NCBI GenBank assembly: GCA_914767715.1
Contig: OU612070.1
Location: 21,502,025 to 21,566,024, forward strand
DNA length: 64,000 nt
Direction: 5' to 3'
Source of the DNA: Membranipora membranacea
Taxonomy: Eukaryota > Bryozoa > Gymnolaemata > Cheilostomatida > Membraniporidae
In this document: positions 13,970 to 60,798 of the stretch, in pieces
How positions within the stretch are numbered: position 1 is the first letter of the stretch
Layout: every line of letters begins with the position of its first letter
The notes under the pieces: model-generated
What the model saw: the letters and a program-made list of their open reading frames with translations, nothing else
Database searches by the model: none
Told to the model about the DNA's origin: nothing
Made by a program: the position numbers and the translations under genes

Positions 13970-19825
<5,856 letters not shown>

Positions 19826-38155: not shown

Positions 38156-41100
38156 TTTGCTGGTTCAATTTATTAAAGATTGATATTCGATAGTAAAAAA
38201 TGCGTCTGAATTTCATTTGATTTTTTTAATGTTAAAATGTGACAGTATGACCAGTTTTGCATATATGCTAAGCCCTACTTGTTTCAATTTGTTTATTGGG
38301 CTGTCGAAGTCAGATGCAAAACTGGAACAACATGGACAGCAGTAGTTTAAACGCTCAAATGATAAACTGTTTGTTGGTATTGGTAGTTCATTATCAACCA
38401 AGTATTGAGTACCGAGTATTGACAAGGCTAACAACAATATAAAACAAAATGGAAAGGAAAAAATTGGAGCGTTCAAAAAGGTGGCTTATTAAATAGTTTT
38501 TCAAAATAAATAAATTTTTATTTTGTTATTTGCCCAATGATGTAAAGCATATTTTCTCAAGCAAATTTTGAAGAGAGCAGAAATACCAAAGCAATATATA
38601 GTCTGGCAGCCAGTTCTGCAGTAGTTATGCAATGTCTTGACACTGAAAAAATGCATAGCCCTTAAAACCTTGAAAGCTCCTCACTAAGACTCACACCCTA
38701 ATTTCCAGCGGTACAAATCGCCTGACAGTGAAGATCAACCGCACTTATCAATTGCACCATCTCAACATAAAAAAAACAGGTTAATCATGGCAAATTAGCT
38801 GACCCGCCATTCACTACTCACATCCCAGAAGCTCATTCAATTGAACTGTTGCCCTAACAAGGCGTACATGTTGTGTTTGTTGGATCTTACATGGTCCATT
38901 GCTAGTCGAAAGCAGATATACTGTGGGGCTCATTAATTATTTTTTCTGGAAGGCCGCACGATATCACCGGCAATTTATTTCCATCCAGATTGAAGATGCA
39001 GCATATCTTACTTTAAACTCCCGAGATTAAACAGTTGTCAGTGAACTATCTGTTTATTAGAAGTTGTATATCACTCATATGTTAATAGTTGAACAAACAG
39101 ACACTCTATTTCAAAATTCCTTTCTAATGCAAGCTTTTCGTTTTTAAGACTGGCCAAAATCAAAACAATCATTCTCTGATGATGACACAGATAGTATAAA
39201 ATGCCCTGACCATCGTATGGATTGGTCAAAATGCGAGTTAAATTTGAAAGTTTTGTTATCTGGATGCTATCTGTAGATGAATGAAACTGTCTGCCAGTGG
39301 CATCAATGTATGTCATCTCTTCAACCTTCTTGAGGTTGTGAATGCAGCGTAATCACTGTACTGCTCAACAGGCGCTATGAGAACGTAAAAAAGGAAGTAT
39401 GCATGTGAATCAGTTTGGAAGTTATCTTTTAATATAATGATGTATTCCAAAGATAAGGTGATATCAGCATCGTACAGTAGATATGTATAATAAAAACACT
39501 TAAAATAAGAGAAATCATCGATCGATGCAGAGCATTATAATCATATGCAATACAGATAACAACAGTTAATAATCATAAGTTTAAAAAGTTAATATATCAT
39601 CCAGTATCCCCCTACCCCCACATCTGTTCGGCTACTAGAACTAGGGGCTATATTAGCATAAATATGGACAAGGTGGCTGAGTGGTTAAGGCGGTTCACTG
39701 CTTATCAGTTCGAATCCCATCCTTGTTGGTAGGTTTTAATAGAACATTATAATGATAAAAAGAAAAAATTATTAAAAAAGAAAGAAATTAAAACAGAAAA
39801 ATAAACTATCTGTGGCCTACTGCATTATAAAATAGCTAATACTTGACCAGGGAAAAGCAGCTGCAGAATGAAAACCATAGGGTTATCAAATACTCTATGA
39901 TGAAAACTTAGACAACCCAGACACCCTGTGGTTGAAGAAAAGAGATGACGAACATTCTCACCTTCATCAAAATTTTGTTTTCCCATTTCTTTCATGATGG
40001 CTGATTTTATAAAATATTTTCATCATATGAAATCCATGGCCCTGAAATAAAATGCTGTATTTTTTTCAGCGGTTTGATGGCCTTCTTACCTAAGCTGCTA
40101 GATAACATCGGTGTGAAATACCAGTTGTATGCTATCAATACTGTTCTGGGGGAGTTTTGGTGAAAATAAAATAACCACCAACTATTAAACAGCTAGATGG
40201 AGAGTCAAGCAGGTTTCTATCAATCATCCCCTCCTTCATAGAAAATAGCTATTTAAAGTGGAACCTAATGAAGACACAATTCATTGAGAATGCTTGCCGA
40301 TGAGGCTCAAACGTACAACTCCTGTGGCACCATATCCCTCGCAATGAATACATTCTGCGCTACTTATCGCATTATCCTTCCTTCATAGGTGATTGTTGAA
40401 TTATGCAGCTTTTGTGTTTAATCTTCATTTTGTCCATCGAGGTGTAAAATCCATTGAAAAGACTAGCGAAATAAGCATTAAAGGGCAACCAGGGCTTCAA
40501 AGAACTTCTCATTGATTAATAGCAGATTGCACCTTATGCATAGGGAACAAGACAAAATCTAATTCGGATGATTATTCAGCCAGAATTCTTGTGCAACATT
40601 GCCTCCATCAAGTACTCAAACTCAGCTAAAATAGAATCTCACAGAGCAGTTTCCTGTTCCTGTTTCCTTTTAATCAGCTTTGAGTCAGCAACTACTTTGA
40701 GTTTTGCACCGCGTCATGCACAAAGCTGATGCTGCCCAACAAATTCTGCACTACCCATTTATGCATTGCTGCGAAACCTTAGTTGCCCTTTAAATGATAA
40801 CTAGATTAGTTTGATAAACAGTTCATAAATTTGATATAATATCGCTTGCTCGATTTTTAATTTTTTTGACGCCAAGGTCTAAAAATATGTAAAAAGATAA
40901 TTCGGTTTATAGATTTGTTATAACAACTTTATTGGCATAACCTTCAGTTGGTGTATACTATGGTTTTTTTCAAAATCAGCCAATAAAAGGGGGAGAAAAA
41001 TTTCAATCAAGATGAAGAAAACTGAATCCAGAAAAAAGACATCCAAATGATTTATGCTTGATGTTTGAACGTAAACTAAATGATATTTTGTGAGAAGTTG

Positions 41101-41635
41101 ATTAACAGTTACCATTACTAGCAAATGTTTATAGTTTGCATTGTGTTGTACTGTAAAATATTTCCAAAACTAGAATGCATTTTCAAAGCTTTAGAATAAT
41201 TTATGTCCAACACATAAGACACAAATCGGGTTAGGGGGAGACATCGACAACAAGCTGAACAAGTCTTCTTTGTGACAAGTAGAAGGTGCAAGCTCTGGAT
41301 ATGAATAGTAATTATAGGATATTTTCATGTCATGTGAATCAATCAGCCAGGAATGAGAATTGGAATGCGAAGAGTTTTTATATCTTACGAAAATATTTGG
41401 TACTGTTTATACAAAGTTTGCGATTCAAATATTGTAGAGGTGGGACAATGACAAGTCATTCAATTAAAATAGCAGAAATAGTCGGAAGTTGATTGTTGAT
41501 TTGATCACATCTAATTCGATGTTTAATTGAATTATTCTGGATCTTATGCAATGATTATAAGTGGATGATTATGTGGATGATTATGAATAGTCCTCATGTA
41601 GAGATGCCTAATTCTTTGAATAAAAAGAATTACAT
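38156..41635. other. Non-coding left-arm flank
   Basis: No gene seen. ATTAAA at 38172-38177 may serve as the DCST polyadenylation signal. The stretch is largely mirrored in the right arm, with a decayed tRNA-Ser-like element at 39667-39727. Open frames are short and not shared between the two arms. Confidence 0.5.
39667..39727 (+). repeat. tRNA-Ser-derived relic
   Basis: Begins GACAAGGTGGCTGAGTGGTTAAGGC like the tRNA-Ser gene at 60799, but the anticodon arm is altered and the variable arm is missing. The 25 bases upstream also resemble those upstream of 60799. Confidence 0.6.
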
Positions 41636-43369
41636 CTAACATTTAAATCCACACTTGGCTTTATAGCATTTACATGATGAGTCATACTCTAGATTACAGC
41701 TATACTCGCAAGCTCTCTTAACTCTGCCGCTGCTTGTCTTTGTTGTCTGCTTATTGCCTGCAAATAATTGAGGTAAAAAAATCATTTCAAATAGGTGGGA
41801 CAAAAAAACAGATCTACAGATCAATCTATCAATAACCTTAGAGGTAGATTTTTTTCTTCAGATTGTTGATTATTACTTCAAGACTTTCAAGGTATTGTTT
41901 TAAGTTGATCAATAAATATTATACAACAGCACTCAAAAACATACCCGTTGGAAATCGCCAGAAAATCCCTGCATCACATCTTTCAACTGCATCATCTGGT
42001 AGAAAGCTTGTGTCTTGAATTGATCCACTAAGATTTATGTAGATGGAGTCATCAGGAATCATTTTGACTGCTGTCCTCTCAGTGACTTGGCGAGTAGAAT
42101 TTGTCATCAACTCAACTACTTCAGAGTCTTCTTGGCTGGTCTCGATTGGAGTCACAAAGCAGTCTGACTCACCAGAAGACTTTGTAACCTTCAATGCCTA
42201 AACAGAGGAAGACAAAAATTTGATTAGCTTTCAAGTTCAACAGTCGAATGGATCATCTCATCCATTACCGATCATATTGAACTGATTGACCATGAGTAAA
42301 ATGAAGATTATTCCCAGTGACACAATGAAAAACAAAAAAAACTCTCAACTAAAGACATATTCGCAGGTTTCCCACGGTAACTCTGACTACTTAACTTAAG
42401 GATTTGTAAACAAAGAAATTGAGTTTTATGCCACAGACATCCAAAGCCCCCTTTGAAAGGACATTTACTTGGCTAAAAGAGAGGTGCCTGGTGAAGGCAC
42501 CTCAATGTTAGGACTGTTACATGGTATGGTAGTTATTACAATGATGTCACTACCATCTGATCATACCTTCTTCAGGTCCTGAGCTGTGAATGAGCCGTCA
42601 CTCCCTTCAAACCAGATCAGACCCTTCTGCTTGATAAAATACATCTCTTCATAACCCTGGATTAACAAAATATAAAGCATATATTACACAGTCACATGCT
42701 AACAGAAATATTCACAACAACCCGATGGGAATTAGTATCGGCTGTTATGTCAAATTAAGCAGTAACCAGTAGCTTTGTAATGTGGTGTAAATGATGAAGT
42801 CACAGTTGAATCTTTAGGATCATTTAGAGATAGCCGTCATCACAGCTACAGCAATCATTGAGGTTGATTTTACTGTTAAACTCACCATCTCAACGCCATT
42901 AAAGACCATCACAAGCTGCTCATACTCAGTAAAGTTTCCAGCGTTATCAAATGGTAAGGCTGCCGTAAATGTCGCCACCGCTCCCAAAAACAGAAGAACC
43001 ATTCTGATAGCCTGAAAGAATTCAATTTGAACCTTTGAATATTAATGTGAGTGCAATAATAATGGTATATGTTTCTGTACATGAGGCCATATCCATTTGA
43101 AAACTTTTTTACGAGGTAATGGAAGCAGATGGCATGATTTGTTTTAATAAGATCTTGCTCTCAGCTGCACCAATTAATATTCCTTAACTGAAAACTTTAT
43201 TTTTGCTTCCTTTTAGTTCGAAAGAGTAGGTGAAATACAGGTGTATACTTCACAGATTTATGTCAGTAAAATATGTTGAAGCTGTCCTAAAAAGTAACAT
43301 ATTCCATGTATTTTTCATGTGTAAATTATTTAATTGATCCACTTTATAGCAATGGTAAGTACTTACCAT
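41636..43369 (-). CDS. BRICHOS precursor of a six-cysteine secreted peptide, copy 1
   Basis: Five exons, all in phase: 43369-43367 (the ATG alone), 43011-42886, 42656-42567, 42197-41945 and 41757-41636, 197 residues. Order of parts: signal peptide (MVLLFLGAVATFTAA then LP), linker with N-glycosylation site NFTEY, BRICHOS domain from about residue 45 to 157 (GLIWFEG, DLKKALKV, then SDCFVTPI with its first Cys, and ERCDAGIFWRFP with its second), spacer, furin-type site RVKR, and a 25-residue C-terminal peptide beginning AC. The six Cys are spaced CX3CX7CXCX4CX3C. BRICHOS domains act as intramolecular chaperones for beta-prone peptides; in annelid arenicin-type precursors the peptide after BRICHOS is antimicrobial. 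That function is inferred here. Net charge of the peptide is about +1, lower than in arenicins. Lies inverted relative to copies 2 and 3. Confidence 0.9.
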
Positions 43370-43466
43370 TTTTACAGTGATGATTGATGTTAGAAAGCTT
43401 TGTCAGTTTATGCTGTTTCTTCTAGGTTCACAATGTTGACTGATTTCAAAACTACAACCTTTGCTG

Positions 43467-43474
43467 CTTTTATA
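43467..43474 (-). promoter_or_regulatory. TATA box, BRICHOS copy 1
   Basis: TATAAAAG on the minus strand, about 98 bases before the ATG, followed by AGCAGCAAAGGTTGTAG and, closer to the ATG, AACAGCATAAACTGAC. The same arrangement precedes copy 3, and the second word also precedes copy 2. Confidence 0.75.
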
Positions 43475-44481
43475 AAGATTATAGGAGGAAGGAGGAAAAT
43501 AAGATGTTTGCACTTGTAAGATAAAACAGTTATTCATTGGTACAGGCCCCTTATCAATGTCAAACCATTGATAAGCACTATTTCACAAGCCAATATATGT
43601 CATGAAAACTAGCTCCCTAGTTGATTGTTTTCTGGTAGCAAATTGTGATGCTACCATCTGGCCATATTCTCATGGCAACATTTGAGGAAAACTTTGTTCT
43701 TATCATTTTATACAAACCAAAATCATTGCAGTTTTATCTTTTCAAAAGTGCTGAATCAAGTGTGATGAAATCAACACTATGCAAACAAAAACAAGTTGTT
43801 TTCCATAATATGAATTAATTTTGATTCGACCGTATGTTCCCAAATTTATGTTAAACCAAATATTGTATGCTAGAGTTTAATTGACTGTAATGAAAAATAT
43901 TTGGAGTTCTATGACATCTGTATCTGTATCTGTATCTGTATCTGAAGAACTCTGACCTGTTCAGTGTGTTAGCATGGACTTCATGTCAACTTAGTCTGTT
44001 GTAAGTTATGGGTGAGATTAGAGTGATGAGACTGTGCTGCATTCCAAGACTTATTTAATTAGGAAAGAGTAAGCTTAATGCTGGCAGTATGAATGATATG
44101 TTTGCACGCTCAAAGTGGTACAGTGGCTGAATTCCCGGTATCTTTTGAAAAGCCTAAAATGAAGATGAAAAAGAAAATGAACTCCATACCAAAGCCGAGA
44201 GGTAACAACAAGGACTACATCCGCCTCTTGTTGCTCTATCATTTCTGTAGTATTCTCTGGTAAACTCGGAAATCCACTGAATTCATGTAAGGTCCATGGA
44301 ATGTGCGAGAGTGAGACTCTGCTAGCACCGCTATCTCTCATAAACAGGCTGAAGAATTAGTTGTTTTCTGTTTTGCCATGCAGGGAAATTTTAAGAACTT
44401 TAAATTCCAGTCTGCGATCCTCCACCTCTCCCCCTCAGCTGCTTAGCAGTGAAATTTAAGGGCAACACTGACCAAAATATA

Positions 44482-44558
44482 GACAAGGATGCCGAGTTGG
44501 TAAGACGACGGTCTGCTAACTCATTTTCCTCTGGGAACGTTGGTCGAAATTCGAGTCA
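44482..44558 (+). repeat. tRNA-Ser-derived relic
   Basis: GACAAGGATGCCGAGTTGGT with TCTGCTAACTCA and CTCTGGGAACG keeps the tRNA-Ser(GCT) layout, but the D-arm and T-arm are broken. Its mirrored partner is at 55499-55573. Confidence 0.6.
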
Positions 44559-45005
44559 GTAAATTAATCGAATTAAACCTCTGGCAGATTTTACAGTACA
44601 CAGTGATTGAAGTAGCAGTAAAAAAAAGCATCTCAAAACTCAGGCAAGCTGCTTTATGTAAGTTTTACAAGTAGTCCTCCATAGAATTACTGGACTATTG
44701 GACCAATGAAACAGGAAACTAGATTCCTATAACCATGCATGGGGATGCCATTTGTTTGTGGAGGGTCAATCATATCCCCCTAATCCATGAAAATATATCA
44801 GAGGGGCCACCACTTGCAAGTTAAAACTACAAGAGTGTAGTGTTTCATTTTTGAATAATTTGTATTCAAACTTTATTAGGCGCATCAACGTATGAAACGA
44901 TTAAGATCAACAAACAAAAACAAAGCCTTACTCTGACCTTATCACATCAATTATCATCTTTATTTTTCTCTGCAATATGCATGGATTCAGATATTGAAAC
45001 CATTT

Positions 45006-45086
45006 CAACAAGGATGAGTTTTAAACTCACGCTCCCAGAGGGAAATTGATTAGCAGTCCATAGCCGTAACCACTCAGCCACCTTGT
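45006..45086 (-). repeat. tRNA-Ser-derived relic
   Basis: On the minus strand AACAAGGTGGCTGAGTGGTT then GACTGCTAATC and TCTGGGAGCG; acceptor ends no longer pair properly. Its mirrored partner is at 54970-55050. Confidence 0.65.
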
Positions 45087-45888
45087 TTAGATATCTTAGA
45101 ATTCTTTGAGAAGTCCGAATGCCAGCTGAGTGGGAGGAGTTGGGGTTGGGGAAATAGACAATAAAATTCAAATCTGATAATTACTATCTGCCATTATCTG
45201 ATTGTCCGCAAAAAAGACCCAGACTCTGAGAGGCATATAATTATTATATGTCTCTATGTTATTCCTGTATGTATTGATTTGTGGTCTTTTACGGGATAAT
45301 TGGTCTGGTGCCTTTATCACTAGGTAATTAGAATTTAACCAGCGTAGAAGGCTAATTTTGTTTATTGATTCATTCTTCTTGCCGCTACTACAATTAAGAG
45401 ATGAACTGATATGTATACCATACTGGTATGTACAAGCAGTTCAGTTTTAGCATGGTACTGTGACCTCGTCCCAAGGCCAAACAATAAACTGTGGAAATGT
45501 TTGTTTTTGAAGTAGCTGATTCATCCATTTGTTTCCTCTTTCCTCAAGATAAAACTGCTACAACACCTCTCAAAACAAAGATAAGAACGATATTGTCCCT
45601 GTCTGTCAGTTTGCATATATACTAATGAATCAGTGTTATGAGATTTCATCACTGCGAGAATGTAAACAGATGGCCAGTAGGACATTTGTATACTAGAAAA
45701 CAATAAAACTTGTTTTCGTGTCACCTCATAGCTTGAAATCACATTCATCAATGTTTTGGATTGGTTACAGTGTGAACTGTAAAGCCAATCAAGGAGGCGG
45801 ACCACTTTTAGTACTAATGAACATGGCCTCTTTATCATCCCAGTGGCAATGAAAGCCACTGCCCTTATTTTGTTGCATATTCATTTCA

Positions 45889-45894
45889 TATAAA
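45889..45894 (+). promoter_or_regulatory. TATA box, BRICHOS copy 2
   Basis: TATAAA about 110 bases before the ATG at 46000. The leader contains AACAGCATAAACTGAC, shared with copies 1 and 3, while the sequence just after the TATA box differs from theirs. Confidence 0.7.
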
Positions 45895-45999
45895 GGCGGC
45901 GGTGATCATGATTGTGGTAGAAGTGAATGTTTTGTTGGAGGAGAAACAGCATAAACTGACCAAGTGACCTATCGACAATCATTTCTCAGTCCTGAAACT

Positions 46000-48494
46000 A
46001 TGGAAATGGTAAGCTCTTAGACTTTTACAAAAAAGCGTTTTATTAAAGAGATACATTAAATAAATCAATAAGCTAAATATGAGATATATGGCTCTTGTTC
46101 TTGTTCTTTTTCTTTTTCCTTACTATTATTGCCATCCCATCAGTTTATTTTCGATATCATACCTATTGCTTGTACATATAGATTAAGAAATTTTAAGAGT
46201 TGTAATATCAAACCGTTAATATCACTATAGAATATTTTCATTCATAAATCTTTTCTGCTTATTTCATGTTTCAGTTGTAATATTGTTCTAATTAATATTC
46301 CACTAATATTGATTTCTAATTTAAATTGATATAATTTGCCAGGGTTTTTGAAAAGTAATTTAATTCAAAATGAAAGTCTTTGGTTTATCAAATACGAAGA
46401 TCCATTGTGGCTAAAAACAAGGAGTCCTTGCAACAAAATATTTGATCAGAATCTTTTATCACATAAACAAAATTTACATAAAAAAATCTTGTGACTGAAT
46501 CAATGCCCGAGAAGGGTATCTTTGATGAATACAGCCATATTGCTATTGCAAACACAATAATATCGATTTGAAATTGCTTTATTTTAGGCTCTTAGAAAAG
46601 TTTTATTGACTTTGGGGATGGTGGTGACAGTCACAACAGCTTTACCATTTCGTAATGCTGGAAACTTTACAGAGTATGAGAAGCTTGTGATTGAATGGAA
46701 TGGAGTGGAGATAGTGAGTTAAACCATACATTTCTTATCAGCATCGTGAATTCTTGTGGACTACAATTTCCAGACCCTGTCACAAACTCTCTTCCCTTTT
46801 ATTTACATGATAACCCGTTATGATAATCTAGATATAAAAAATAGAATCAATTATTAGTAAAATGAAGTAGCTGGTGAGTTGAAAACAAAACCACCAAGAA
46901 AAGCTAAATTTTCATTTGTTGACCACGAGAGTGATGCAAGGGAGCAAGAAAGACCATAAAAACCAAACAGGTCCATCTATGTTACTGTTGGAATGTTACC
47001 TTATTATATACTTTACATGATATTTAACCAGGGTTATGAAGAGGTGTATTTTAACAAAGAGATAGGCTTGATCTGGTTTGAAGGAAGAGACGGTTCATTC
47101 ACAGCTCAGGACCTTGGAAAGGTATGATTGAACTCAAATATTTCCTAAAGGTGACCAAATCAGTACATTTTAATTCCAATAACTAACACCTTGACCAGCA
47201 AATGGTAACCCTCTATATATTTCTCTCGTGTTCAGCGAATGTACTTTATACTTTAGGAAGAAGCTGGGAATAGCCTCAAATCTGTGAAATTGCCAAAATA
47301 CTCAATTGATAACACCTAGACTAATTTTAAATATCATTGCGTGATATATCAACTGCAAGGCAGTACTAAAAGTAAGATTGTTCAGAAATTGATTAAAATT
47401 TCTCTTTGATTTTTGTGGGACATTCTTTGATTGCTGCCGCCACACAAATTTATTTAGCAAACTTTGAAGATGAAATTCAACTATCATAAAAACTTGGGAA
47501 GCTGCGGCAGGTTATGCTTTTACATTTAACAGATATAGTAGGTATTTTGAACGTTGTAGACTCTGCAATATTTGAAAATATTTGGATGAATTCCAGGGAA
47601 ATGCTGCAGATGTGATGTATACCCTAGGTCTGATATTAAAATATGATCAATAATACAGTTGACTTTCTCTGTTTAGGCATTGAGAGTTACAAAGTTTTCT
47701 GGAGAGTCAAACTGCTTTGTGTCTTCAATCGAAACCAGCACAGAAGACGCTGCAATGGTTGAATCGCTGATTCATTCTGCAAGCCAATTGTCTCAGGGGA
47801 AGACAATCCAGATGATTCCTGATAACACCATCTACACGATTGTAACTGGACCCATTCAAGACACCAGTTTTCTACCAATGGAGGCAGTTCAGAGATGTGC
47901 TGCAGGGACTTACTGGCGGATTCCAACAGGTATGATGTCAAGTTCAACATACACCTTGAATCTTGTTTTTTGCACATCTTTGAATGGATCCAGAGATAAA
48001 TAGTGCAAATTAAAAGTATTGTAAATTGTAGCCCCAATCTTACCCTCATTGGTTATAAGCATATCATTAGAGGTTTCATTTTAGAGAGTCCCATTTGACA
48101 CATTAGGACCTGATCAGACCCGAGCCAACTCCATTTTGAAAGCTTAATGTTATATTTTGTTTGCAATGCTATTTTCCTTCCGAACACAACTCTGGCAAAA
48201 ACCTCAATTGTGTTGGGGTTAATAGATATTTGAATAATTTACGTTGATACCGATTTTTTCTATTGTTGATGCTTTGATCACCTTTTTGTTTCATTGCTGT
48301 AATTTATATAGTCTTTGCTTGAACGATTAATAACTGTCAAGACTTACGGTTTTTCTCAATTACTTGTAGGTGAGAAACAGGCACAAGATGTAGGCAGCAG
48401 ATCTAAGCGAGCTTGCGCCTATGGTTGTGATCTTGTGTATGACTCATCGTGCAAGTGCTATGAAGCCAAGTGCAGCGTCAAATGTGACTTTTAA
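46000..48494 (+). CDS. BRICHOS precursor of a six-cysteine secreted peptide, copy 2 (divergent)
   Basis: Five exons in phase: 46000-46008 (MEM only), 46588-46713, 47032-47121, 47677-47929 and 48370-48494, 200 residues. Exons 2 to 4 have exactly the same lengths as in copies 1 and 3 (126, 90 and 253 bases). Signal peptide KVLLTLGMVVTVTTALP, glycosylation site NFTEY, BRICHOS with the Cys pair in SNCFVSSI and QRCAAGTYWRIP, then a furin-type site RSKR. The C-terminal peptide keeps the spacing CX3CX7CXCX4CX3C but ends with two extra residues (DF), giving 27 residues. Several charged positions differ, and its net charge is about -1, so a membrane-disrupting role is less likely than for arenicin-like peptides. 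It lies between the inverted arms, in the same orientation as copy 3. Confidence 0.9.
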
Positions 48495-49181
48495 ACTCTG
48501 TGCCGAGTAATGTTCAAACAAGTCACTCTCAATAGAATGCTCTCTACGGTTGCTTGAAAAATATAAAACTAGATTCTGAGATGAAAAAATAAGGAAACTT
48601 AGTTTAATGCGACGAATGCAGCAATCAAGTTGAGTTTTATTGAACAGCACCGTGTGACTTTTCCATCTTAAATTTGATATAGTAAAATATATTATGTCAA
48701 AGTAGATGGGTGTCGTCCGAGTGCATAATAAATGTATAGGCTTTCCCTTTATATCACAGTGATATTTGAAGTTTCCTACTGTTTTGGCAGGATGACTGGC
48801 CTCTCCGGGCAACATAGACCATGCTCCTTGACCATGCTCTATCCCCTCATTGTCTTTGTCTCCCAATTTTCTTCTGTTATTATTCCATTGGTTTGCTTGC
48901 TTTGGCACATTCTGAAAAACATCATTTTGATGATAAAAATTGTTTGTCAATAAATATTGAAAAAGAAAATACATTTGCTGAATCATGCAGAAAGAGTACA
49001 CATTTTTTAAATATTGTTGAATCGAATATAATACAATGATATACAAATATTAAATGTTTCTGTATTTTCTTGGAATACTAGCCATCAGAGCTTAACCAAT
49101 CATAATCGCTTATGTAACAAAGGAGCTGAACCATCCCAACCTGCAGTAATTGTAACAATTGGGATACTTTCCTGGAGGAAA
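48495..49181. other. Non-coding gap before the LINE
   Basis: No gene. A 200-codon minus-strand open frame over 48444-49046 has no recognisable domain and runs antisense through the last BRICHOS exon, so it is not listed as coding. Confidence 0.5.
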
Positions 49182-51572
49182 ATGGAACATCAAGTCTATA
49201 TATCCTCAACCATACTTAAATTGTCGAAACGCTTTTCCAAGGCGCAGTTCCTATTATGCGTGGATTTTAACAGACTACCTATAGACGATATCACTGCTCA
49301 GTTTGGCCTCTCCAACCTGGTTAACTTCAATACTAGGGAGGAAGCTATGCTGGATTTGATATTAACTGACATACCGCAATACAGCACAAGTGAGAAACTA
49401 GCCCCCATAGCAAACAATGACCACTTCTGTATCTACCTAAAAGGAGAGGGCATAGAATCAACTAAATATATTAGAACAAAACGCCGACTAGTGACACCAC
49501 AACGAAAACTCGATGTACTCGCCGACCTAGCAAGAGAATCTTGGGATACAGTTTTACAGGCTAATGATTTCCACAGCAAGGTTACCACCATGCACAGCAT
49601 CATTAATAAAACACTTGACAAGCACTGCCCAATGAAGACTACTAAGGTACGAGCCGACAAACCACCATGGATGTCTGACACTATTATGAAGACAATCTCT
49701 GCAAGAAATGAGGCATACAAAGACAAATGCCCATCATACAAAGTGCTACGGGCTCTGGTACAGAGACTAGTACGCACTAGCAAAAGAAAATATGTGAACG
49801 AGACTCTTAATAAAAATCGTAACTCTAAAGAATGGTGGGACACCGTTAAAAAACTCACCAATAAAGCACAACAGTTACACAAATCTGATCATATCATCAT
49901 CGAGGACAAGAAACTACCTAACGCTGAATTCTGCCATAAACTGAATAATTACTACATAGAAGTCGGGGGAATACGAGCTACCCCGCAACCTGCCCAACAA
50001 ACGACAAACAGAACAAAACTACAACACCTTAGTATAGGTGAAGTTAAAATGCTGATGAGAACGCTGAACACCTCAAAGGCTACATCAACCGAAGACTTCC
50101 CAACATGGGTGTCCAAGGAAGCCATTGAGGATGTATCAATTCCTCTACATGATATTATCAACCACTCACTCGACACTGGCACATTCCCTACTATGTGGAA
50201 ACGCGCGCAAGTAGTTCCAGTACCGAAGACCAAAACTCCCACCATCTACAAAGACTTCCGACCCATCAGCCTATTATTTCATCTCGGCAAACTCCTAGAG
50301 CAGGTGATCCTAAGTAAGATGACGACACATCTCGCTGATATAATAGATGTGAATCAATATGCCTACCAACAGAAACTGAGTACCACTGACACACTACTGC
50401 AGCTACTCGATGACTGGACATCAGCTCTTGATCAGAACTCAAACATTAAATTTGTCCAGAACGCAGTTATAGATTTTTCAAAGGCGTTCGACAGAATGCA
50501 ACACCCGATCTTATTGTCTAAAATGAACTCGCTAGGATTTAATTCCAATGTTATCAACTTGGTAGGAAATTTTCTAAATTCAAGACAGCAGTGTGTCAAG
50601 TTTTCTGGACAATTTCCAACATACAAGCCCATTGATGTTGGTGCACCACAAGGCACTAAGCTTGGGCCTATTCTCTGGCTGATATACTTTAATGACTTGA
50701 AAGCTGAAGGTTTTAATTGTGTGAAGTACGCAGATGACACCACATTTTATAAGCCTATTGTAAACCTCACCGATGACAATGTCTCTGCTGCTATATCAAA
50801 TGCTAATAGTTGGTCTTTAGAAAACAGTATGCTTCTCAACTCAAGTAAGACTGTTGTATTGAATATTGCTTTTTCTGACCGACCTGGTATGAACCTCGAT
50901 GTAAACCCCAGTGATGATACTTTTATCTCCCCATCTAAATCTGCTAAACTATAAGGAGTCACTGTAGACTCTCAACTGTCTTTTAGTGACCACATAGACT
51001 CTGTCGTGAGCAAATGCAATAGCAGACTGTATCTGATGAAGCAGCTTAAGACCATGGGTATGAACACTGCAGGACTGATAACATTCTATGCTGCCAATGT
51101 CAAACCCGTTCTTTCCTACGCCTGCCCAGTATGGTTTCAGTTTATCTCCGAAGCCGATAAAGAGAAACTAGAGAAAGTGCAGAGATACGCTACACGCATG
51201 ATGATGCCACACATAGAGCACTATGACGATAGACTGACCAAGCTAGCCTTACCCTATATATCCGACTTCTTAATGTCTCTATGCAGCGAACACTTTTTAA
51301 AAATTTCAACCGATAATACCCATCCGCTGAACAATAGAATCAGACCTAACACTCAAAGAAAATCCGCCCGTAAAGCAGTAATCGACAAATACCGACCCAG
51401 CAAATGCCGCACTGTAAAACGGCAGAACAGCTTTTTTGAATTCTATATGAGATTTTTCAACTAGTGCAATATTTTTCCATCAATTTTTATTTAAACATTT
51501 CAATTTTGTCAACCTTTTTAGGAGTGATACCAGAAATGTCTAAATAAACAAACATCAAACATCAAACATATA
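49182..51572 (+). mobile_element. CR1/L2-like non-LTR retrotransposon, 5'-truncated
   Basis: One long frame (49182-50954, continuing in the same frame at 51006-51464) encodes the end of an AP-type endonuclease (ends ANNDHFCIYL), a linker, and a full reverse transcriptase: FRPISLL, motif A DFSKAFDRM near 50470, motif B GAPQGTKLGPILWLIYFNDL near 50640, and motif C YADD near 50727. A C-terminal region with KPVLSYACPVW follows. The only lesion seen in the RT part is an in-frame TAA at 50952-50954. The 3' end carries repeated ACATCAA units (51550-51570), typical of the CR1/L2 clade. The 5' endonuclease part is incomplete. Long open frame and few lesions suggest a young insertion. Confidence 0.92.
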
Positions 51573-53439
51573 CTAAGGAGGTTTTAGGATGTTTTTTAGC
51601 AATGTTGACGTTTTTTGGGCGATTTTGAATTGTTGTCTACCAATGCAACGTTTTCTGATGTTTCAAAAAATCGAGCAATTTTGCAAAAAGTTCAAAGTTG
51701 TTTTCTTTCCGATATTCTCATTGGCACTCACTTAATTAAGACAGAGGGAAGAGAAATTGGATACATTGATAAAAACGCCCAGAAATCACCAGTTGGGAGG
51801 GCAGCTCTCCAAAAATGTCCAAAAATCATTAACAATGCTAAAATTGTCCATAAAGCGTCCTAGTATAAACTAACCTTAAATTATCAAGATTTATCAACAT
51901 TCATTATTTCAGTTTTCTCTCAATTCTTAAAATGAACGAGGTATTCACCCATTGACACATAGCAGAGCGGATACAAAAGTCAGCGCATAGACCTCAAGAC
52001 CTTTCCTGTTCTACACCTTATCTGAGTTACTTTTCTATTAAACCTTGTCAGTGTTGGAACATTTGGGAGAGCACAGAACCGGACATACCCGAATAGAAAG
52101 CTAAATGCTTCAGTATACATAATTCAGTAGCAAAATGAAAATTTTAAAGGAAACAAATACATAGCTGCCATTGTCACACTAGATCATTCATATACGCACT
52201 GCCTGATACCAGTTCAAGATTTTGAAGGTTCACCTCTTATTAACCTGTGATCACAGATATTACTGTGCTAATCTAATCAAAACTCTGACTTTTTGTGTCC
52301 ACACAAATATGGAAACAAGAAGCAGTGTTCACCCAAAAAAGATGCTTAGCACAAACAAGTATTCTTCTCGCAAATATAAATAAGATCATTGTAGGGAGTA
52401 AAACATCTTATGCGGAAAAGGCTTCTGCCCTCAACTACATATTAACTATGTTATTGCATTGTAAAGATGATCCACTTAATCCACAGCAAAGCTTGATTTT
52501 TGGATTCTATGAAAGGTTACATATATAGCCTTTATATTTACGTCCTTTGAATATTATCTCTGTTCTACGTAGCAGACTAAAGCTACATACATATATTACC
52601 CATTAGTTATAATGCAAAGAAATCCCAAGGGTGGCCAACTACATGGTAGGAGCTATGTTGACATTGAAGTGAGTTTGAGAGAGATTTTGACTGCTAGAGG
52701 AGCAATATTTTTCAGCTTGATAATCCACTGGTCATATCTTGGAGCTCTGTTAAAGATTGTGTTTCTATCATTTCTTCAAAATAATATTCTAATCCCCTGG
52801 CATATAATTAAATCACAGCAGATCTGAAACACATTTGCATTTTGGTTTGACTTGACCAAAATTTCACAGCCTTCCTTGCCTAGTAGCTGAGCTTAAAAAT
52901 CCGGTAGCATCTTGCTTGCTAATACAACAGATTATAACCGATCATAAGTTCATTTTTGGATGTTCCAATCCTTTAAGTTAAGAAAGTAACAAGGAATCAG
53001 AATATCTATATTGGCTCAGTGATATTTTGATCAATACATAAATCCTACACAGGCCTGTAATTCAGTTTTAGGGGCAGCAGTAAGGCACATACACTAGAAG
53101 TTGGCTAGGCTCTATATCTGGTGAAGCATCACCTTGCAAACTGGGTTAGTCTTGGGGACTCTGAAAGCCTCCGGTGACGGCAGAGGGCATCACCCAAGCC
53201 GCTGAAGCTCTTATAAATTTTTGATTTTGATGTTACTTTATTATGCGATTACTACAAATTGCTCAATTCTACCAATTGGTATACAGGCTGTCATCATGTA
53301 AAAATGTATGAACTACATGCAATTGGATATACTAGGTTGTAAACTAAACCTCATGACAACGGATTTAGCAAATAAACTTTCACTAAGCTCTTAGGTGCAA
53401 AAGTGGGATGGCTATGACATCACCTGTTACCATACCGAA
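51573..53439. other. Gap between two LINE fragments, no gene seen
   Basis: Short open frames only, none with a recognised domain or flanking splice sites that join in phase. Confidence 0.4.
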
Positions 53440-54186
53440 TAGGGCTACAATTTCATGCATGGTATGCATGGTATGGCATGCGCTATATACATCGAACCGA
53501 AGTTACAACCGAACTGGGGGAGGAGTAGCCATCTACTCTAAATCCAGCCTCACGACTAAATTTATATCACGATACACCTACTAGCTCTACAGTATCTTCT
53601 CTATGGATTTAATTACAGCGAGACGATAACATGCCTGCCATCATATACGCAGTAATCTACTATCATGGTGAATTTAACAAGCAAAGGAAAGCTGGTGTAA
53701 TGGACCATATCCACGACACCACAACATTGTGCCTCGAGAAGTTATCAAACGCAGAAATTCTGATGCACGGGGATTTTAACGACCTTGACGTCACTGAACT
53801 CAACCAAACATTCAGACTAGATCAGATGATTATGTTTCACAACAGAGTTAATGCTACCCTTGACCTCATCATGACTAATGTAACTGAGTACAAACGAGCA
53901 ACCATCAACAAATTAGCGCCAAAAGGAGCTAACGACCACTGTGTGATAGAAATAGCTGCACCCACGAGCTAAGATCAAAATACACAACACGAACAAAGCA
54001 TATGGTCACTAAAAAAGCCATATCACTCATCACACAAGATCTACAAAAAGAATCTTGGTCGGAAGTATATAACACTAACGACATCAAAATAAAAGTAGAT
54101 CGCTATCAAAACATCAACAAAAAAATATTTACCAAACACTGTCCTAATAGGAATGTGAAGGTTAAGGTGGGGAAACCCCTTTTGGA
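53440..54186 (+). mobile_element. 5' fragment of a related LINE (endonuclease region)
   Basis: Decayed frames include GGGVAIYSKSSL, HGDFNDLDVTELNQTF and LDLIMTNV, ending GANDHCVIEI (AP endonuclease motifs), then LQKESWSEVYNTNDIK and KHCPNRNVKVKVGKP. These align with the N-terminal part of the 49.2 kb element (LARESWDTVLQANDF, KHCPMKTTKV). Several stops and frame changes are present. The match ends near 54186, where sequence related to the 38.3 kb and 63.7 kb repeats begins, so there is no RT domain. Confidence 0.8.
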
Positions 54187-54850
54187 GAATTCCAAAACAA
54201 TTGGGCTTAGAAGACTTAAAAATAAACTAAACCGCAAGGGAAATCCAGGATTGAAGATAGTTAATATAAATGAAATACCAATACCAGCAACTGGGCAACA
54301 TTTGAGCGCATAAACTACTACTGTCCACGTTGTTCCAGTTTTGCATCCAATTTCATAAAATTTAATGACAATGAGTATAGTTCTTTTAGTTAAAAAAACT
54401 TCCTAAAGTGAGTCCACAACCTCTATAATAAACATCATATAATATAATTAATATTGCTGTCCGTCTAGATAGACGCTGGCGGCATAGGAAGAGGTTTATA
54501 GTGACGACTAGGTTTCCGAGTCGTTAGTGCCACTTTTTAACCACTGACAGCTTTAACCCAGCGTGAAGAATATTGCTACAAGGCCGGAGCCGCAGTGGTT
54601 GATGACAGCATCCTCCTGTATAGAGCTATACCATACAGGAGGGTTCTTTAATCTGCATGCACGACGGTGTTGATCATACAGAAGACCTCCATTATTTATA
54701 GTCCTGATCCGATTAGTGGAAATTGATTTTACTACTCATATGGCCATTTTGGTAAAAGTTGTCATAAGTCATCTGCTTAGTTTCATCTTTGCATTGTTGA
54801 GTATATTCACTAGTTCCTGCTGCTTTCAAATCAGCTACCTCTCTCATTAA
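54187..54850 (-). pseudogene. Antisense fragment of the DCST 3' end with flanking repeat
   Basis: 54718-54850 is the reverse complement of the last DCST coding exon (about 38020-38152), with scattered substitutions; 54250-54370 likewise mirrors 38300-38410. Between them, 54380-54700 is an unmatched insertion. The fragment carries only the final 45 or so codons and cannot encode a working protein. It abuts the outer end of the right arm directly. Confidence 0.8.
54380..54700. repeat. Insertion rich in hairpins
   Basis: Contains CCTCCTGTAT mirrored by ATACAGGAGG near 54610-54640, GACGACT mirrored by AGTCGTT near 54505-54525, GTCTAGATAGAC, and a longer pairing of AACCACTG with CAGTGGTT. It interrupts the DCST-fragment repeat. 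No coding potential is seen and no known RNA family is recognised. Confidence 0.45.
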
Positions 54851-54969
54851 TTAATTTTTATCCGGCAGATAGTAATTATCAGATTTGAAATTTATTGTCT
54901 GTATCCCAAACCCCAACTCCTCCCACTCAGCTGGCATAGGGACTTCTCAAAACATTCTAAGATATCTAA

Positions 54970-55050
54970 ACAAGGTGGCTGATGGGTTACAGCTATTGAC
55001 TGCTAATCCATTTCCCTGAGGGAGCGTGAGTTTAAAACTCATCCTTGTCG
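54970..55050 (+). repeat. tRNA-Ser-derived relic
   Basis: AACAAGGTGGCTGATGGGTT then GACTGCTAATCCA, GGGAGCGTGAG and CATCCTTGTCG; the anticodon arm is damaged. Mirror partner of 45006-45086. Confidence 0.65.
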
Positions 55051-55498
55051 CATTGGCTTTAATAACTGAATGCATGCATACTGCAGAGAAAAATAAAGAT
55101 GACAATTGATGTGGTAAGGTCTGAGTAAGGCTTTGATTTTGTTCGTTGATCTTAATCGTTACACATGTTGATGGGCCTAATAAAATTTGAATACAAATGA
55201 TTCAAACATGAAACACTCGACTCATGTCGTTTTCACTTGCAAGTGGTGGGACCTCTGATATATTTCCATGGATTAGGGGAATATGATTGACCCTCCACAA
55301 ACAGATGGCATTCCCATGTATGGTTATAGGAATCTAGTTTCCTGTTTCATTTATCCAATAGTCCAGTAATTCTACAGAGGACTACTTGTTAAACTTTCAT
55401 AAAGCAGCTTGCCTGAGTTTTGAGATGCTTTTTTTTACTGCTACTTCAATCACTGTGTAATGTAAAATCTGCCAGAGGTTTAATTCGATTAATTTACT

Positions 55499-55573
55499 GA
55501 CTCAAGTTTCGACCCACGTTCCCAGAGGAAAATGAGTTAGCAGACCGTCGTCTTACCAACTCGGCATCCTTGT
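55499..55573 (-). repeat. tRNA-Ser-derived relic
   Basis: Minus-strand GACAAGGATGCCGAGTTGGT, with the same damage as its mirror partner at 44482-44558, so the damage predates the duplication. Confidence 0.6.
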
Positions 55574-56557
55574 CTATATTTTGGTCAGTGTTGCCCTCAT
55601 ATTTCACTGCTAAGCAGCTGAGGGGGAGAGGTGGAGGATCGCAGACTGGAATTTAAAGTTCTTAAAATTTCCCTTCGTGGCAAAACAGAAAACAACCAAT
55701 TCTTCAGCCTGTTTATGAGAGATAGCGGTGCTAGCAGAGTCTCACTCTCGCACATTCCATAGATCTTACATGAATTCAGTGGATTTACCAAGTTTATCAA
55801 ATAATACTATAGAAATGATATCGTGCAACAAGAGGCAGATGTAGTCCTTGTTGTTACCTCTTGGCTTTGGTATGGAGTTCATTTTCTTTGATGAAACTTT
55901 AGGCCTCTCAAAAGATACCGGGAATTCGGGTGCTGCACCACTTTGAGTGTGCAAACATATCATTCATACTCAACACTTTCCTAATCAAATAAGTATGGGA
56001 ATGCAGCGCCATCTCACCACTCTAATCTCACTCATAACTTAGAACAGACTGACTTGACATGAAGTCCATGCTAACACACTGAACAGATCAGAGTTCTTCA
56101 GATACTACTGCAACATGTCATAAGACTCCAAATATTTTTCATTACAGTCAATTAAACCCTAGCATACAATATTTGGTTTAAAGTGAATTTGGGAACATAC
56201 GGTTGAATCAAAATTGAATCATATTATGGTGAACAACTTGTTTTTGTTTGCATAGTGTTGATTTCATCACATTTGATTCCGCACTTTCCACAAGATAAAA
56301 CTGCACTAATCTCGGTTTGTATTATGATATGAACATAGTTTTCACCATGTGTCGCTATTAGAATATAGCCAGATGGGTAGTATCACAATTTGCTACCAGA
56401 AAACGATCAACTAGGGAGTTAGTTTCCATAACAAATATTGGCTTGTGAAATCGTGTTTACCAATGGTTTGTCACTGATAAGGGGCCTGTACCAATGAATA
56501 ATTGTTTTTATCTTCAAAGCGCAAACATCTGATTTTCCTTCTTCCTCCTATAATCTG

Positions 56558-56565
56558 TATAAAAG
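56558..56565 (+). promoter_or_regulatory. TATA box, BRICHOS copy 3
   Basis: TATAAAAG about 117 bases before the ATG, followed by AGCAGCAAAGGTTGTAG and AACAGCATAAACTGAC, as at copy 1. Confidence 0.75.
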
Positions 56566-56674
56566 CAGCAAAGGTTGTAGTTTAGAAATCAGTCAACATT
56601 GTGAGCTTAGGAGTAACAGCATAAACTGACAAAGCTATCTACAACAATCATTTCTCTGTCCCATCACTGTGAAA

Positions 56675-59027
56675 ATGGTAAGTACATAGCATTCTTATTA
56701 TGTTGATCAATTAACTAATTCTCACATGAGAACTACATGGAAGATGTCACTTAATAGGACTGGTTCAACATAAAGTTACTAACATTTTACACGAGAATAG
56801 CCAAATACCTTGCACAAAAAGGATAAGAGAGCCTGGATTGCAACCGTTCTCATTGGATTTCAAGCTTCAACATCAGATCTTCATTGACTGAGACATCTGG
56901 CTCTTGCTCTTTGTTGCTTTCACTTTCTATTGTTCCATATCACCGAGTAATTCCCCTATCAAATGGTGGCAGGAACTACCATGTATTCCTAGATATGATT
57001 GTGCTTTTGTCATGTAACCATCTCTCTTGAAATTCCGTCAATTCTGCACCAAATTAAATAAGCGTCTAATGAATGGCAAGTACTCTGTCTGCCAAACAAT
57101 TCATTATAGTGATGTTATCATCACTTTTGGTTATCAATCTGTGAAGTATACACCCATATTTCCCCCACTTTTTTTAGGATCAAAAGAAAGCAAAAAATAA
57201 AGTTTTCCAGTTGAGGGCATGGACTTATTACAACAAATCATGTCATCTGCTGCCATTACCTTGTAAAAAAAATTGCAAATTGATTTGGCCTCATGTACAG
57301 AGATAACTCCAAACACACATCTCATTATCTTTGCATTCACATTAATATAAGGTTCACATTGAATTATTTCAGGCTATCAGAATGGTTCTTCTGATTTTGG
57401 GAGCGGTGGCGACATTCACAGCAGCCTTACCATTTGATAACGTTGGAAACTTTACTGAGTATGAACAGCTTGTGATGGTCTTTAATGGCGTTGAGATGGT
57501 GAGTTTAACAGTAAATTCAAACTCCATAATGGCTGTAGCTATGATGACGGTTATCTCTAAATGCTAAAGATTTAACTTGTGACTTCAACAATAAGACCCT
57601 GTAACAAGGCTACTGGTTACTGCCCAATTTAACAAAACAGCCTGTAATAATTCCCATCGGGTTGTTGTGAATATTTCTGTTAGCATGTGACTGTGTAATA
57701 TATGATTTATACATTGTTAAACCAGGGTTATGAAGAGATGTACTTTATCAAGCAGAAAGGTCTGATCTGGTTTGAAGGGAGTGACGGCTCATTCACAGCT
57801 CAGGACCTAAAGAAGGTATGTTCAGATGGTAGTGACATCATTGTTTTAATTACCATACCATGTAACAATCCTAAGCGGTCAATGGCATTGAGAAGCCTTC
57901 AACGGACACCTCTCTTTTAGCCAAGTAAATGTGCTTTCTGATGTGGCTTTGGGTAGCTTTCGACAGCTGCATAAATATAATATTCAATTTATTTGTTATG
58001 GAATTCTTAACTTGAGGAGTCAGAGTTACCAAGAGATCCCTGGAAAGCTATCTGCAGTTGAGAAGTTTTATTTGCTTTTTATTGTGCTGCTGGGAATAAT
58101 CTAAATTTATCATGTTCACCATGAGGAAATATGAAAAATATTGCATAATATACCTACCTCACACCTGTATAAAGACCACCGATATACATCATGTATTAGG
58201 AGAACGTATCTCACCCTTAAAAAGCATATGGCAATTTGTGTGTGATTGGTGGAAACCATGTCTTATCTTTGATTGGACCAAAAGTTCAGTAATACTACAG
58301 TCGTCCACTTGTAAACATATGTCAAGTAGCTTGCATGAGTTTTGAAATTTGTAAGATTTCTAATTTTCGCTTTCCTCTGTTAAGGCATTGAAAGTTACAA
58401 AGTCTTCTGGTGAGTCAGACTGCTTTGTGACTCCAATCGAGACCAGCCAAGAAGACTCTGAAGTAGTTGCGTTGATGACAAATTCTACTCGCCAAGTCAC
58501 TGAGAGGACAGCAGTCAAAATGATTCCTGATGACTCCATCTACATAACTCTTAGTGGATCAATTCAAGACACAAGCTTTTTACCAGATGAGGCAGTTGAA
58601 AGATGTGATACGGGAATTTTCTGGCGATTTCCAACGGGTATGTTTTCAAGCGCTGTCATATAATATGTATGTATCAACTTAGACCATATTTTGAAAGTCT
58701 TGAAGTAATGATGGCTAGGGGCTTCTACACAGCTGGAAACCTTAGAGGCTACCCCCTACCCAAAAAGTCAATATGTGATGAGAATTTTTGTGTTATACAG
58801 GCCAATCTGAAGAAATCTATTTCTATTCTTTTTTATAGATTAATCTGTACTTCCGTATTTATGTCCCACCTATTTGAAATGATTTTTTACCTCAATTATT
58901 TGCAGGCAATAAGCAGACAACAAAGACAAGCAGCGGCAGAGTTAAGAGAGCTTGCTCCTATAGTTGTGATCTTGAGTATGACTCATCATGTAAATGCTAT
59001 AAAGCCAAGTGTGGATTTAAATGTTAA
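56675..59027 (+). CDS. BRICHOS precursor of a six-cysteine secreted peptide, copy 3
   Basis: Five exons in phase: 56675-56677 (ATG only), 57373-57498, 57726-57815, 58385-58637 and 58906-59027, 197 residues. Same plan as copy 1: signal peptide MVLLILGAVATFTAA, NFTEY glycosylation site, BRICHOS (GLIWFEG, DLKKALKV, SDCFVTPI, ERCDTGIFWRFP), furin-type RVKR, 25-residue peptide with Cys spacing CX3CX7CXCX4CX3C and the core YDSSCKCYKAKC. It differs from copy 1 at about eight residues, two of them within the 25-residue peptide. Exon and intron borders are identical in position. AATAAA at 59283-59288 is a likely polyadenylation signal. Function as a defence peptide is inferred from the architecture shared with annelid BRICHOS antimicrobial precursors; an epithelial or signalling role is an alternative. 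Confidence 0.9.
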
Positions 59028-60798
59028 ATGTGATTCTTTTTATTTCAAAGAATTAGGCATCTCTACATGAGGACTATACATAATCATCCTCATAATCATC
59101 CACTTATAATCATTGCATAAGATCCAAAATAATTGAATGAAATTTTGAATTACATGTGATCAAATCGACAATCAACTTCAGACTATTTCTGACACTTTAA
59201 TTGAATGACTTGTCATTGTCCAACCTCTACACTATTCAAATTGCCTAACTTTCTATTACCAGTATCAAATATTTTTTTAAACAATAAAAATTTCTCTTCG
59301 AATTCCAATTCTCATTTCTGGCTGATGACTTCACATGACATGAAATAATCCTATAATTACCATTTATATGCAGAGCTGGTATACATTAAGGTATAAAACC
59401 GATGTCATAACGCATACAATCTTAGATCTAAAATTTGACCACTAACAAGCCTCTTAATGTCAACCAGCGTGCTGATTCAATGCAATGGCTCGTCATTGCC
59501 AAATTAAAAGTGTATTTATATCTCTGACTAATTTTTTTTTTAAATAATGAATTATTTTGATCCATGAAACCAAATACAATAGCTAACATGACATGACTAC
59601 CAACTATCCAGCCATTACATTACGCTATTTACACAAACACATTACATATAATAATCTTCTACTTGTCAGTCTTGTTCAGCTTGTTGTCGTTGACTCCTAC
59701 TAACCTGATTTGTGTCTTATGTGCCGATCATAACTTATTCTAAAGCTCTTAAAGGAAAAAGTTTTTGGGGCTCAGACTAGCTAGTAATGGTAACTGTTTA
59801 TCATCTTCAAACAAAATACCATTTAGTTTACATTCAAACATATTTTGAAAAGACTTAATTTACACTGTAATAAAGTTAAAAAAAGCTATATTTCTTGTTT
59901 GGTCGCAGTGTTTACAGTACCTTGTAGGGTGAGAGGATAAAATATTTATACAAGGGTTAGAATCTGTAAAGGGAATTATCTTTTTACATTTGATCGGACC
60001 TTGGCATCAAATATCATCCAGTAAAGAGTCTTTCAGAAATTTAAACAAAACATAAAATATTGCAATAGAAACAAGCAAAAAAATCATCAGAAGTGACACA
60101 GTACCAAATTTAATGGTACTGGTTTTGAAATGTGCTACATGAATGCAAAATGTTTTTTTTTAGTTTAGAAAAGATGTAGCCTAATATCAGCAATGCACCA
60201 TAGTGATAAAGAAATGGTGATATAAACAACCGAGAGCCAACAACTGTAGAGGGGAAAGGTCACTGTTAAACACAGGTGTTAACCTGTGGAATTCATACCT
60301 ACTTGGGGAGGGGGCTCCTTTTGCTTTGCGTGGGAGGTTGGCGTCCTAGCTGTGGGGGGTGTGGTTCGCTTCTTGCCGAGTAGGCTTCATGTCTGGGCTC
60401 GCTCTGGGGACAGCAGCCCCTCGTTTTCCCGGCGATCGGATGGTCGCCATACTAGTCCTGGACTAACCTGACCATGCCATTGCCTTATTTTATTTCACTA
60501 TTTTGGTCCATTGATTTTAAATACAATCAATTGTTGCAAAACAAAAAAAACCAACTGTAAAGCACAAATAGCGATCATGAGATTAACGTTATCAGTTCCT
60601 GCGGAAACAATAACTAACTAGAGGCCACTATTATAATTATATGCCGTACAGGAGTTGTAAAGATTGTTCTTGTTCAGGTAGGATCGTCAGCAATTATCAG
60701 ATTTAGACCTTTATATACAGGCCAGTATCACCTCCCTCTCTCCTCTACATGTCATTTGGTTAGGTTTCACATTTGGGGCCAAAATTAGCACAAATGTA
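59028..60798. other. Non-coding right-arm flank with a GC-rich island
   Basis: 59028-60010 mirrors 40830-41635. 60285-60480 is markedly GC-rich against its surroundings (GGGAGGGGGCTCC, GTGGGGGGTGTGG, CCCGGCGATCGGATGG); it has a 61-codon open frame of unconvincing composition and no recognised RNA. No gene is assigned. Confidence 0.45.

Follow-up and report, generated by a model that had tools for sequence, protein, structure and literature searches.

A putative BRICHOS precursor family with a fixed six-cysteine peptide frame in the bryozoan Membranipora membranacea

Introduction

The genes reported here lie in a 64,000-nucleotide (nt) stretch of the Membranipora membranacea genome (GenBank assembly GCA_914767715.1; C6:21502025-21566024, hereafter the window), and the closest described systems are annelid precursors in which a BRICHOS domain precedes a short peptide. 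What is said below of such systems follows the titles, abstract openings and passages of the papers cited. Annelid BRICHOS peptides are described as beta-hairpins that are cationic and contain one or two disulphides, the nicomicins forming another type (PMC6780910). The alvinellacin gene has five introns, which are of phase 0 except for the last, of phase 1. Its peptide is encoded in the last exon, the genes are tandemly duplicated, and within Alvinella it is the BRICHOS domain that varies, with next to no change in the peptide (PMC5431198). From Heteromastus filiformis 13 HfBRI peptides of nine families are described, among them HfBRI-75 and HfBRI-91, which have 11 cysteines and no pronounced cationic character, and Arenicola marina has the cysteine-rich, BRICHOS-related AmIMP1 and AmIMP2 (PMC10745061). 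Since HfBRI-75 and HfBRI-91 carry that many, more than four cysteines in a BRICHOS-released peptide are not new.

We analysed three genes of the window (A, B and C) and three relatives elsewhere in the genome (D, E and F). An earlier, sequence-only reading of the window had set A-C beside the annelid BRICHOS precursors of antimicrobial peptides, and both architecture and intron phases agree with this likeness. The predicted precursors resemble those of alvinellacin, capitellacin and arenicin in their signal peptide, acidic BRICHOS-like pro-part, basic cleavage site and short cysteine-containing peptide. The alvinellacin gene in particular is matched in its introns of phase 0 with a last one of phase 1, in the peptide being encoded by the last exon and in tandem duplication. 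However, the window genes have four introns and not five, their peptides have six cysteines in place of two or four and are weakly charged instead of cationic, and D and F vary in the peptide where Alvinella varies in the BRICHOS domain. As in H. filiformis, numerous predicted BRICHOS-like precursors occur in one animal, apparently of both signal-peptide and membrane-anchored types and with structurally diverse peptides; among the descriptions of HfBRI peptides covered here we found none with the spacing CX3CX7CXCX4CX3C, which sets the two groups apart by description, not by sequence. AmIMP1 and AmIMP2 are named integral membrane proteins; the source gives them a one-sentence description, and they could belong to the same family as A-F. 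Bri2 (ITM2B) shares the Asp-X15-Cys motif, the cysteine pair and a C-terminal peptide freed by a convertase, but is a transmembrane protein with a 23-residue peptide. We know of no six-cysteine frame in Bri2. The new elements, as read from the sequences, are a five-gene family with a fixed cysteine frame, an island of change between D and F, and a wider BRICHOS expansion.

Results

Models of genes A, B and C were built from the raw sequence of the window. Gene A occupies 43369-41636 on the minus strand (exons 43369-43367, 43011-42886, 42656-42567, 42197-41945 and 41757-41636; 197 residues plus stop). Genes B (46000-48494; exons 46000-46008, 46588-46713, 47032-47121, 47677-47929 and 48370-48494; 200 residues plus stop) and C (56675-59027; exons 56675-56677, 57373-57498, 57726-57815, 58385-58637 and 58906-59027; 197 residues plus stop) are on the plus strand. 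The sequence-only reading had described three intact five-exon genes with identical phases, which the models confirm: each gene has five coding exons and a frame that is open throughout, all 12 introns are GT..AG, and the phases are 0,0,0,1 in every gene. Exon lengths are 3/126/90/253/122 nt in A and C and 9/126/90/253/125 nt in B. Upstream stand TATA-like boxes matching TATAAA[AG] (43468-43474, minus, for A; 45889-45895, plus, for B; 56558-56564, plus, for C), with the ATG 105, 111 and 117 nt downstream, respectively, and a 16-nt leader motif, AACAGCATAAACTGAC, is letter-identical across the three genes. A and C sit in opposite arms of an inverted duplication, where pieces of the left arm (40148-45192, with A) are 70-92% identical to opposite-strand pieces of the right arm (54864-61389, with C). 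The stretch from one arm to the other holds gene B and a retroelement.

The products of A and C share 189 of 197 residues, and B is 64% identical to each. Between A and B, exons 2-5 are 72-83% identical versus 41-58% for the introns. Synonymous divergence (dS) is 0.518 and nonsynonymous divergence (dN) 0.219 for A-B (p = 4e-5, Fisher test on rounded counts), and for A-C the values are 0.108 and 0.021 (p = 5e-4, same test). We consider A, B and C genes rather than chance open reading frames because exons are more similar than introns, dS exceeds dN, and the TATA-like box and leader motif are common to all three. Chance frames and pseudogenes are ruled out by the splice sites, by dN below dS and by the confinement of conservation to exons. 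To judge from these comparisons, A, B and C are conserved and probably working genes whose precursors are under purifying selection.

Each predicted product runs from a hydrophobic, signal-like start (assessed from hydropathy for A-C and by eye for D-F) through an acidic pro-part (isoelectric point 4.6-4.8; 4.5-5.0 across A-E) to an R-X-K-R motif and a peptide of 25-27 residues. The predicted mature peptide of A (25 residues; 41639-41713, minus) directly follows RVKR (41725-41714), that of B (27 residues; 48411-48491, plus) follows RSKR (48399-48410), and that of C (25 residues; 58950-59024, plus) again follows RVKR (58938-58949). All three have the spacing CX3CX7CXCX4CX3C, and the six frames of the window hold exactly three occurrences of it, all in these genes. 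The cleavage motif and peptide described by the sequence-only reading are thus present in A, B and C, and the spacing nowhere else in the window. With three disulphides the calculated average masses of the peptides would be 2841.2 (A), 2969.3 (B) and 2800.2 Da (C). The further suggestion of that reading, a novel-looking peptide, is supported as far as the profile and PDB sequence searches reach: a Pfam search with the peptide and with exon 5 returned no family, and no clear match emerged in PDB sequences or NCBIfam. Two PDB sequence rows (E 0.5, both named ORF 37) and NCBIfam rows at E 0.037 and 0.089 were taken as chance. In the open-licence PMC literature we found neither the spacing string of the first four cysteines nor, as far as titles, abstract openings and passages tell, a six-cysteine BRICHOS peptide with this spacing.

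We then looked for relatives in the whole genome (339 Mb, 18 contigs). A search with exon 5 led to gene D, on the minus strand of the same contig and 3.2 Mb from the window. Gene F (C6:24786159-24789106, plus strand) is arranged head to head with D, and both have five exons and the six-cysteine spacing of A-C. Intron phases are 0,0,0,1 in all five six-cysteine genes (A, B, C, D and F), and over these paralogues the peptide measures 25-33 residues with an invariant cysteine frame. By these gene models the genome thus carries at least five six-cysteine genes. Gene E, on contig C2, differs in its anchor-like hydrophobic start, the four cysteines of its peptide and intron phases 0,0,1. No sixth six-cysteine gene emerged when exon 5 of C and of F was compared with the genome, but few candidates were scored (4 and 3, respectively), and the query from C failed to pick up F. 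Among 129 pattern matches on viral contigs, 0 were confirmed as relatives. The Pfam profile PF04089 (BRICHOS) found nothing in the genome at E<=0.001; since it likewise gave matches in 0 of 14 control genomes, this says little. Relaxed to E<=10, the profile returned three rows, one of which is gene E. The other two (L002, L003) look spurious once their frames are read.

The presumed BRICHOS core of B (47110-47929, plus strand) starts in exon 3 at the codon for Asp72 (47110-47112) and extends to the end of exon 4, which encodes Cys88 and Cys149; this gives Asp-X15-Cys and a Cys-Cys distance of 61. Exon 4 of A (41945-42197, minus) and of C (58385-58637, plus) both encode Cys86 and Cys147 and are 56% and 55% identical to exon 4 of B. 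In 6 of 6 genes (A-F) the Asp sits 16 residues before the first of two pro-part cysteines that we regard as the BRICHOS pair, and these cysteines are 61 apart in A, B, C, D and F and 63 apart in E. In Bri2 the corresponding residues, D148, C164 and C223, lie at distances of 16 and 59 (PMC9627735, PMC9278091). BRICHOS is the sole or best Pfam match for B, D and E. Together with the Asp and Cys distances near those of Bri2 and the alvinellacin-like intron phases, this leads us to judge the pro-part a divergent BRICHOS domain; the match of B alone would be only suggestive.

D and F differ very unevenly along their length. Over the precursor part, 136 of 166 aligned residues agree (82%; dN 0.084, dS 0.275). 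Within the peptide, from its first to its last Cys, all six cysteines are kept, yet just 2 of the 18 non-Cys positions match. The proportion of nonsynonymous differences (pN) is 0.741 at mature non-Cys positions versus 0.080 in the precursor (Fisher test on rounded counts, p=2.3e-20; p values for acceleration are per pair, with ten pairs compared). Mature pN is also higher than the proportion of synonymous differences (pS) in the precursor (p=3e-8), and higher than the change seen in the 3' flank (116/365 sites of a 400-nt flank; p=4e-7). Sequence on either side of the peptide can be aligned, upstream over 35 nt of its exon (89%) and downstream over 353 nt of the 3' flank (67%), so the peptide forms a hypervariable island inside alignable flanks. 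This suggests that the peptide of this family can evolve fast, as in a diversifying family of defence or venom type.

Exon 4 of B was also compared with the genome. At E<=10 it gave 22 matches (23 candidates scored), which include A-F; five are strong (A, B, C, D and F), and the other 17, with E values from 0.003 to 5.8, are weak. In 19 of 19 frames read outside the window we see by eye the BRICHOS-like pattern C...SF...C..G-aromatic-x-W or a near variant, so that the weak matches, too, look genuine. Exons of this set (L029, L031-L035 and L037-L047) are spread over contigs C2, C3, C4, C6, C9, C10 and C11, several of them in local pairs, and the set suggests a large lineage expansion. Candidate last exons were read mechanically as a phase-1 exon after AG with a basic site and a stop. 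Candidate peptides with R-x-[KR]-R were found downstream at 5 of 14 loci and with a looser site at 13 of 15, some of the latter doubtful (e.g. L043); the candidate of L038 was found by the R-x-[KR]-R rule and missed by the looser one. Alternating beta-type candidates (IKIKITIK, ISITITI, VEVEVEVE) follow the BRICHOS-like exons of L038, L042, L044, L046, L047 and L032, for example GWLRIRIKIKITIKISFKRR at L038 and GWPKISVSVTITIKFSF at L046, and would be the type of client expected of BRICHOS. L040 and L041 have candidate eight-Cys tails. At L037 (near C11:10072685) a Cys/His-alternating candidate tail, HCPCHCHDGHCHCHCGCGCG, stands behind IVKR, and the candidate last exon of L031 is likewise Cys/His-rich. 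These tails are unlike the BRICHOS peptides described in the literature covered, and they possibly bind metal. At L034 (C11:10256417-10256629), the BRICHOS frame stays open past IVKR, with no intron, and goes on to encode collagen-like GQPG sequence and a tail with eight Cys.

Discussion

We think that A-C are probably genes for annelid-type BRICHOS-peptide precursors, the product being a BRICHOS-chaperoned, convertase-freed and disulphide-braced hairpin that acts as an extracellular antagonistic effector under diversifying selection. In the endoplasmic reticulum, the BRICHOS domain would hold its short, beta-prone, Cys-rich client until the disulphides form, and furin or a similar convertase would cut at R-X-[KR]-R and free the peptide for secretion. 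For exon 5, AlphaFold2 (AF2; B first, three sequences) gave a beta-hairpin (strands: 15-24, 29-38) with a mean predicted local distance difference test score (pLDDT) of 75.1 and a best block of 94. This two-stranded hairpin is the sole usable prediction, and the different six-cysteine fold envisaged by the sequence-only reading is unsupported. Strand symmetry, used here in place of coordinates to set the register, would place mature C2 facing C25 and C6 facing C21, with C14 and C16 at the turn; C2-C25 and C6-C21 are therefore our best guess for the bracing disulphides, with C14-X-C16 perhaps bonded locally or used otherwise. The four-Cys peptide of gene E (spacing 4,15,1, that is, two early cysteines plus CXC) points to an alternative pairing of C2/C6 with C14/C16, plus C21-C25. 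Outside the cell the peptide may act in host defence or as another antagonistic effector, a guess that draws on the antimicrobial setting of the family and on the diversifying loops of D and F. Diversifying selection on its surface is suggested by the change of nearly every non-Cys residue between D and F in a precursor that is 82% identical.

Several results weigh against this proposal and have to be set beside the rival explanations. None of the five scanned genes (A-E) reaches the curated PF04089 cut-off of 25 bits. B scores 18.4 bits (E=0.0026; exon 4 alone 19.3 bits, E=0.0014), D 21.8 bits (E 2.3e-4) and E 20.7 bits (E 5e-4; exon 4 alone 21.3 bits), and A and C are unmatched, whether whole or as exon 4. 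The BRICHOS assignment of the sequence-only reading thus has a profile match below the cut-off in B and none in A or C, and the relatives D and E have top matches that are likewise below it. AF2 on exon 4 (three sequences) reached a pLDDT of 39.5, which is too low to read a topology, and PDB sequence searches yielded no BRICHOS chain. An unrelated two-Cys pro-domain would explain the low scores, the unmatched genes and the missing chain, yet it seems scarcely credible to us, since PF04089 tops the list for three diverged members, the Asp-Cys and Cys-Cys distances (16 and 61-63) agree with the 16 and 59 of Bri2, and the intron phases agree with those of the alvinellacin gene. Synonymous change is raised in the D-F island too (mature pS 0.665 vs 0.230; 9/13 vs 25/109 sites, rounded, p=0.001), as would follow if a stretch of ~90 nt had been exchanged by gene conversion or paralogue replacement in place of point-by-point positive selection. 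We rate such an exchange as rather unlikely, though a serious contender: F exon 5 searched against the genome returned itself, D and C (E 0.46) and no donor, only 3 candidates being scored, and sequence stays alignable in the 5' portion of that exon and in the 3' flank. Nor is the peptide accelerated in A-B (p=1) or B-C (p=0.42), and in A-C the effect is weak (p=0.012) and mature synonymous change is up as well (2.5/9.8 vs 10/111.8 sites). The six pairs of a window gene and either D or F give p values of 0.02 to 1e-4, but their precursor synonymous sites are saturated.

The net charge of the peptides (K+R minus D+E) is +1, -1, +1, +2 and -3 for A, B, C, D and F, which counts against a plain cationic lytic peptide. 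It would suit a disulphide-rich ligand, an inhibitor or a venom or mucus toxin that is matured by a BRICHOS pro-domain and is not microbicidal, as would the lack of pronounced cationic character described for HfBRI-75 and HfBRI-91. The fixed Cys frame of D and F with its hypervariable loops fits here as well, for this is the pattern of conotoxins and of some defensins. We nevertheless hold such a ligand or toxin to be unlikely: no toxin family was matched in Pfam or among PDB sequences, and the annelid BRICHOS peptides tested are, in the published passages covered, mostly antimicrobial, though nicomicin-2 reportedly does not affect bacteria (PMC6780910, PMC10745061). Six cysteines in 25 residues, including CKC and CGFKC, together with the Cys/His-alternating candidate at L037, could instead point to metallothionein-like metal binding through CXC and CX3C in place of three disulphides. 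This is very improbable in our view, given the hairpin model of exon 5, the hypervariable loops of D and F, and a secretory precursor whose convertase site implies an oxidising compartment. The hairpin model itself rests on three sequences, and four of its five versions score 72-75 and the fifth 40.5. An antagonistic effector released from a BRICHOS precursor remains the explanation that we favour for A-C.

Taken with the genome-wide exons, a broader view is conceivable, if somewhat short of an even chance: BRICHOS may be the common chaperone by which one animal delivers a large and quickly changing arsenal of secreted peptides, the chaperone being kept and the client swapped. A six-cysteine class, with hypervariable loops like those of conotoxins around a fixed frame, would then stand beside classes of beta-alternating peptides, of peptides with four and eight Cys, and of Cys/His-alternating ones. 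In people, BRICHOS is studied as a chaperone that counters amyloid. D and F, with closely similar BRICHOS-like pro-parts and peptides that differ at nearly all non-Cys residues, would constitute a natural experiment on client recognition. The pair appears to evolve in the opposite way to that reported for alvinellacin, with change in the peptide and not in the BRICHOS domain. BRICHOS peptides would thereby be extended to a six-cysteine, weakly charged class, and the outcome includes a concrete set of candidate peptides for synthesis.

Other features of the window

A non-LTR (long terminal repeat) retroelement at 49032-51461 on the plus strand encodes a reverse transcriptase (Pfam RVT_1, E 4e-21) whose frame is broken by a stop. 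It lies between the duplication arms, as does a second, weakly endonuclease-like remnant (53613-54310, plus; E 0.085). Ras-family GTPase exons occur at 10100-12779 (plus), where the first two frames match Pfam Ras at E 3.7e-9 and 4.5e-20 and the third has no match; we presume that they resemble Rab27. A frame at 18696-19007 (minus), without a Pfam match at E<=0.1, resembles by eye what we take to be kynurenine 3-monooxygenase. Two adjoining frames at 35576-36211 (plus) gave weak, sub-cut-off DC-STAMP-like matches (E 0.022 and 0.051). A minisatellite at 5661-6135 consists of 18.3 copies of 26-nt units with 99% matches. Transfer RNA (tRNA) matches were found at 24213-24285 (minus) and 60799-60880 (plus), and diverged relatives of the latter at 39644, 44459 and 54946 suggest a tRNA-derived repeat.

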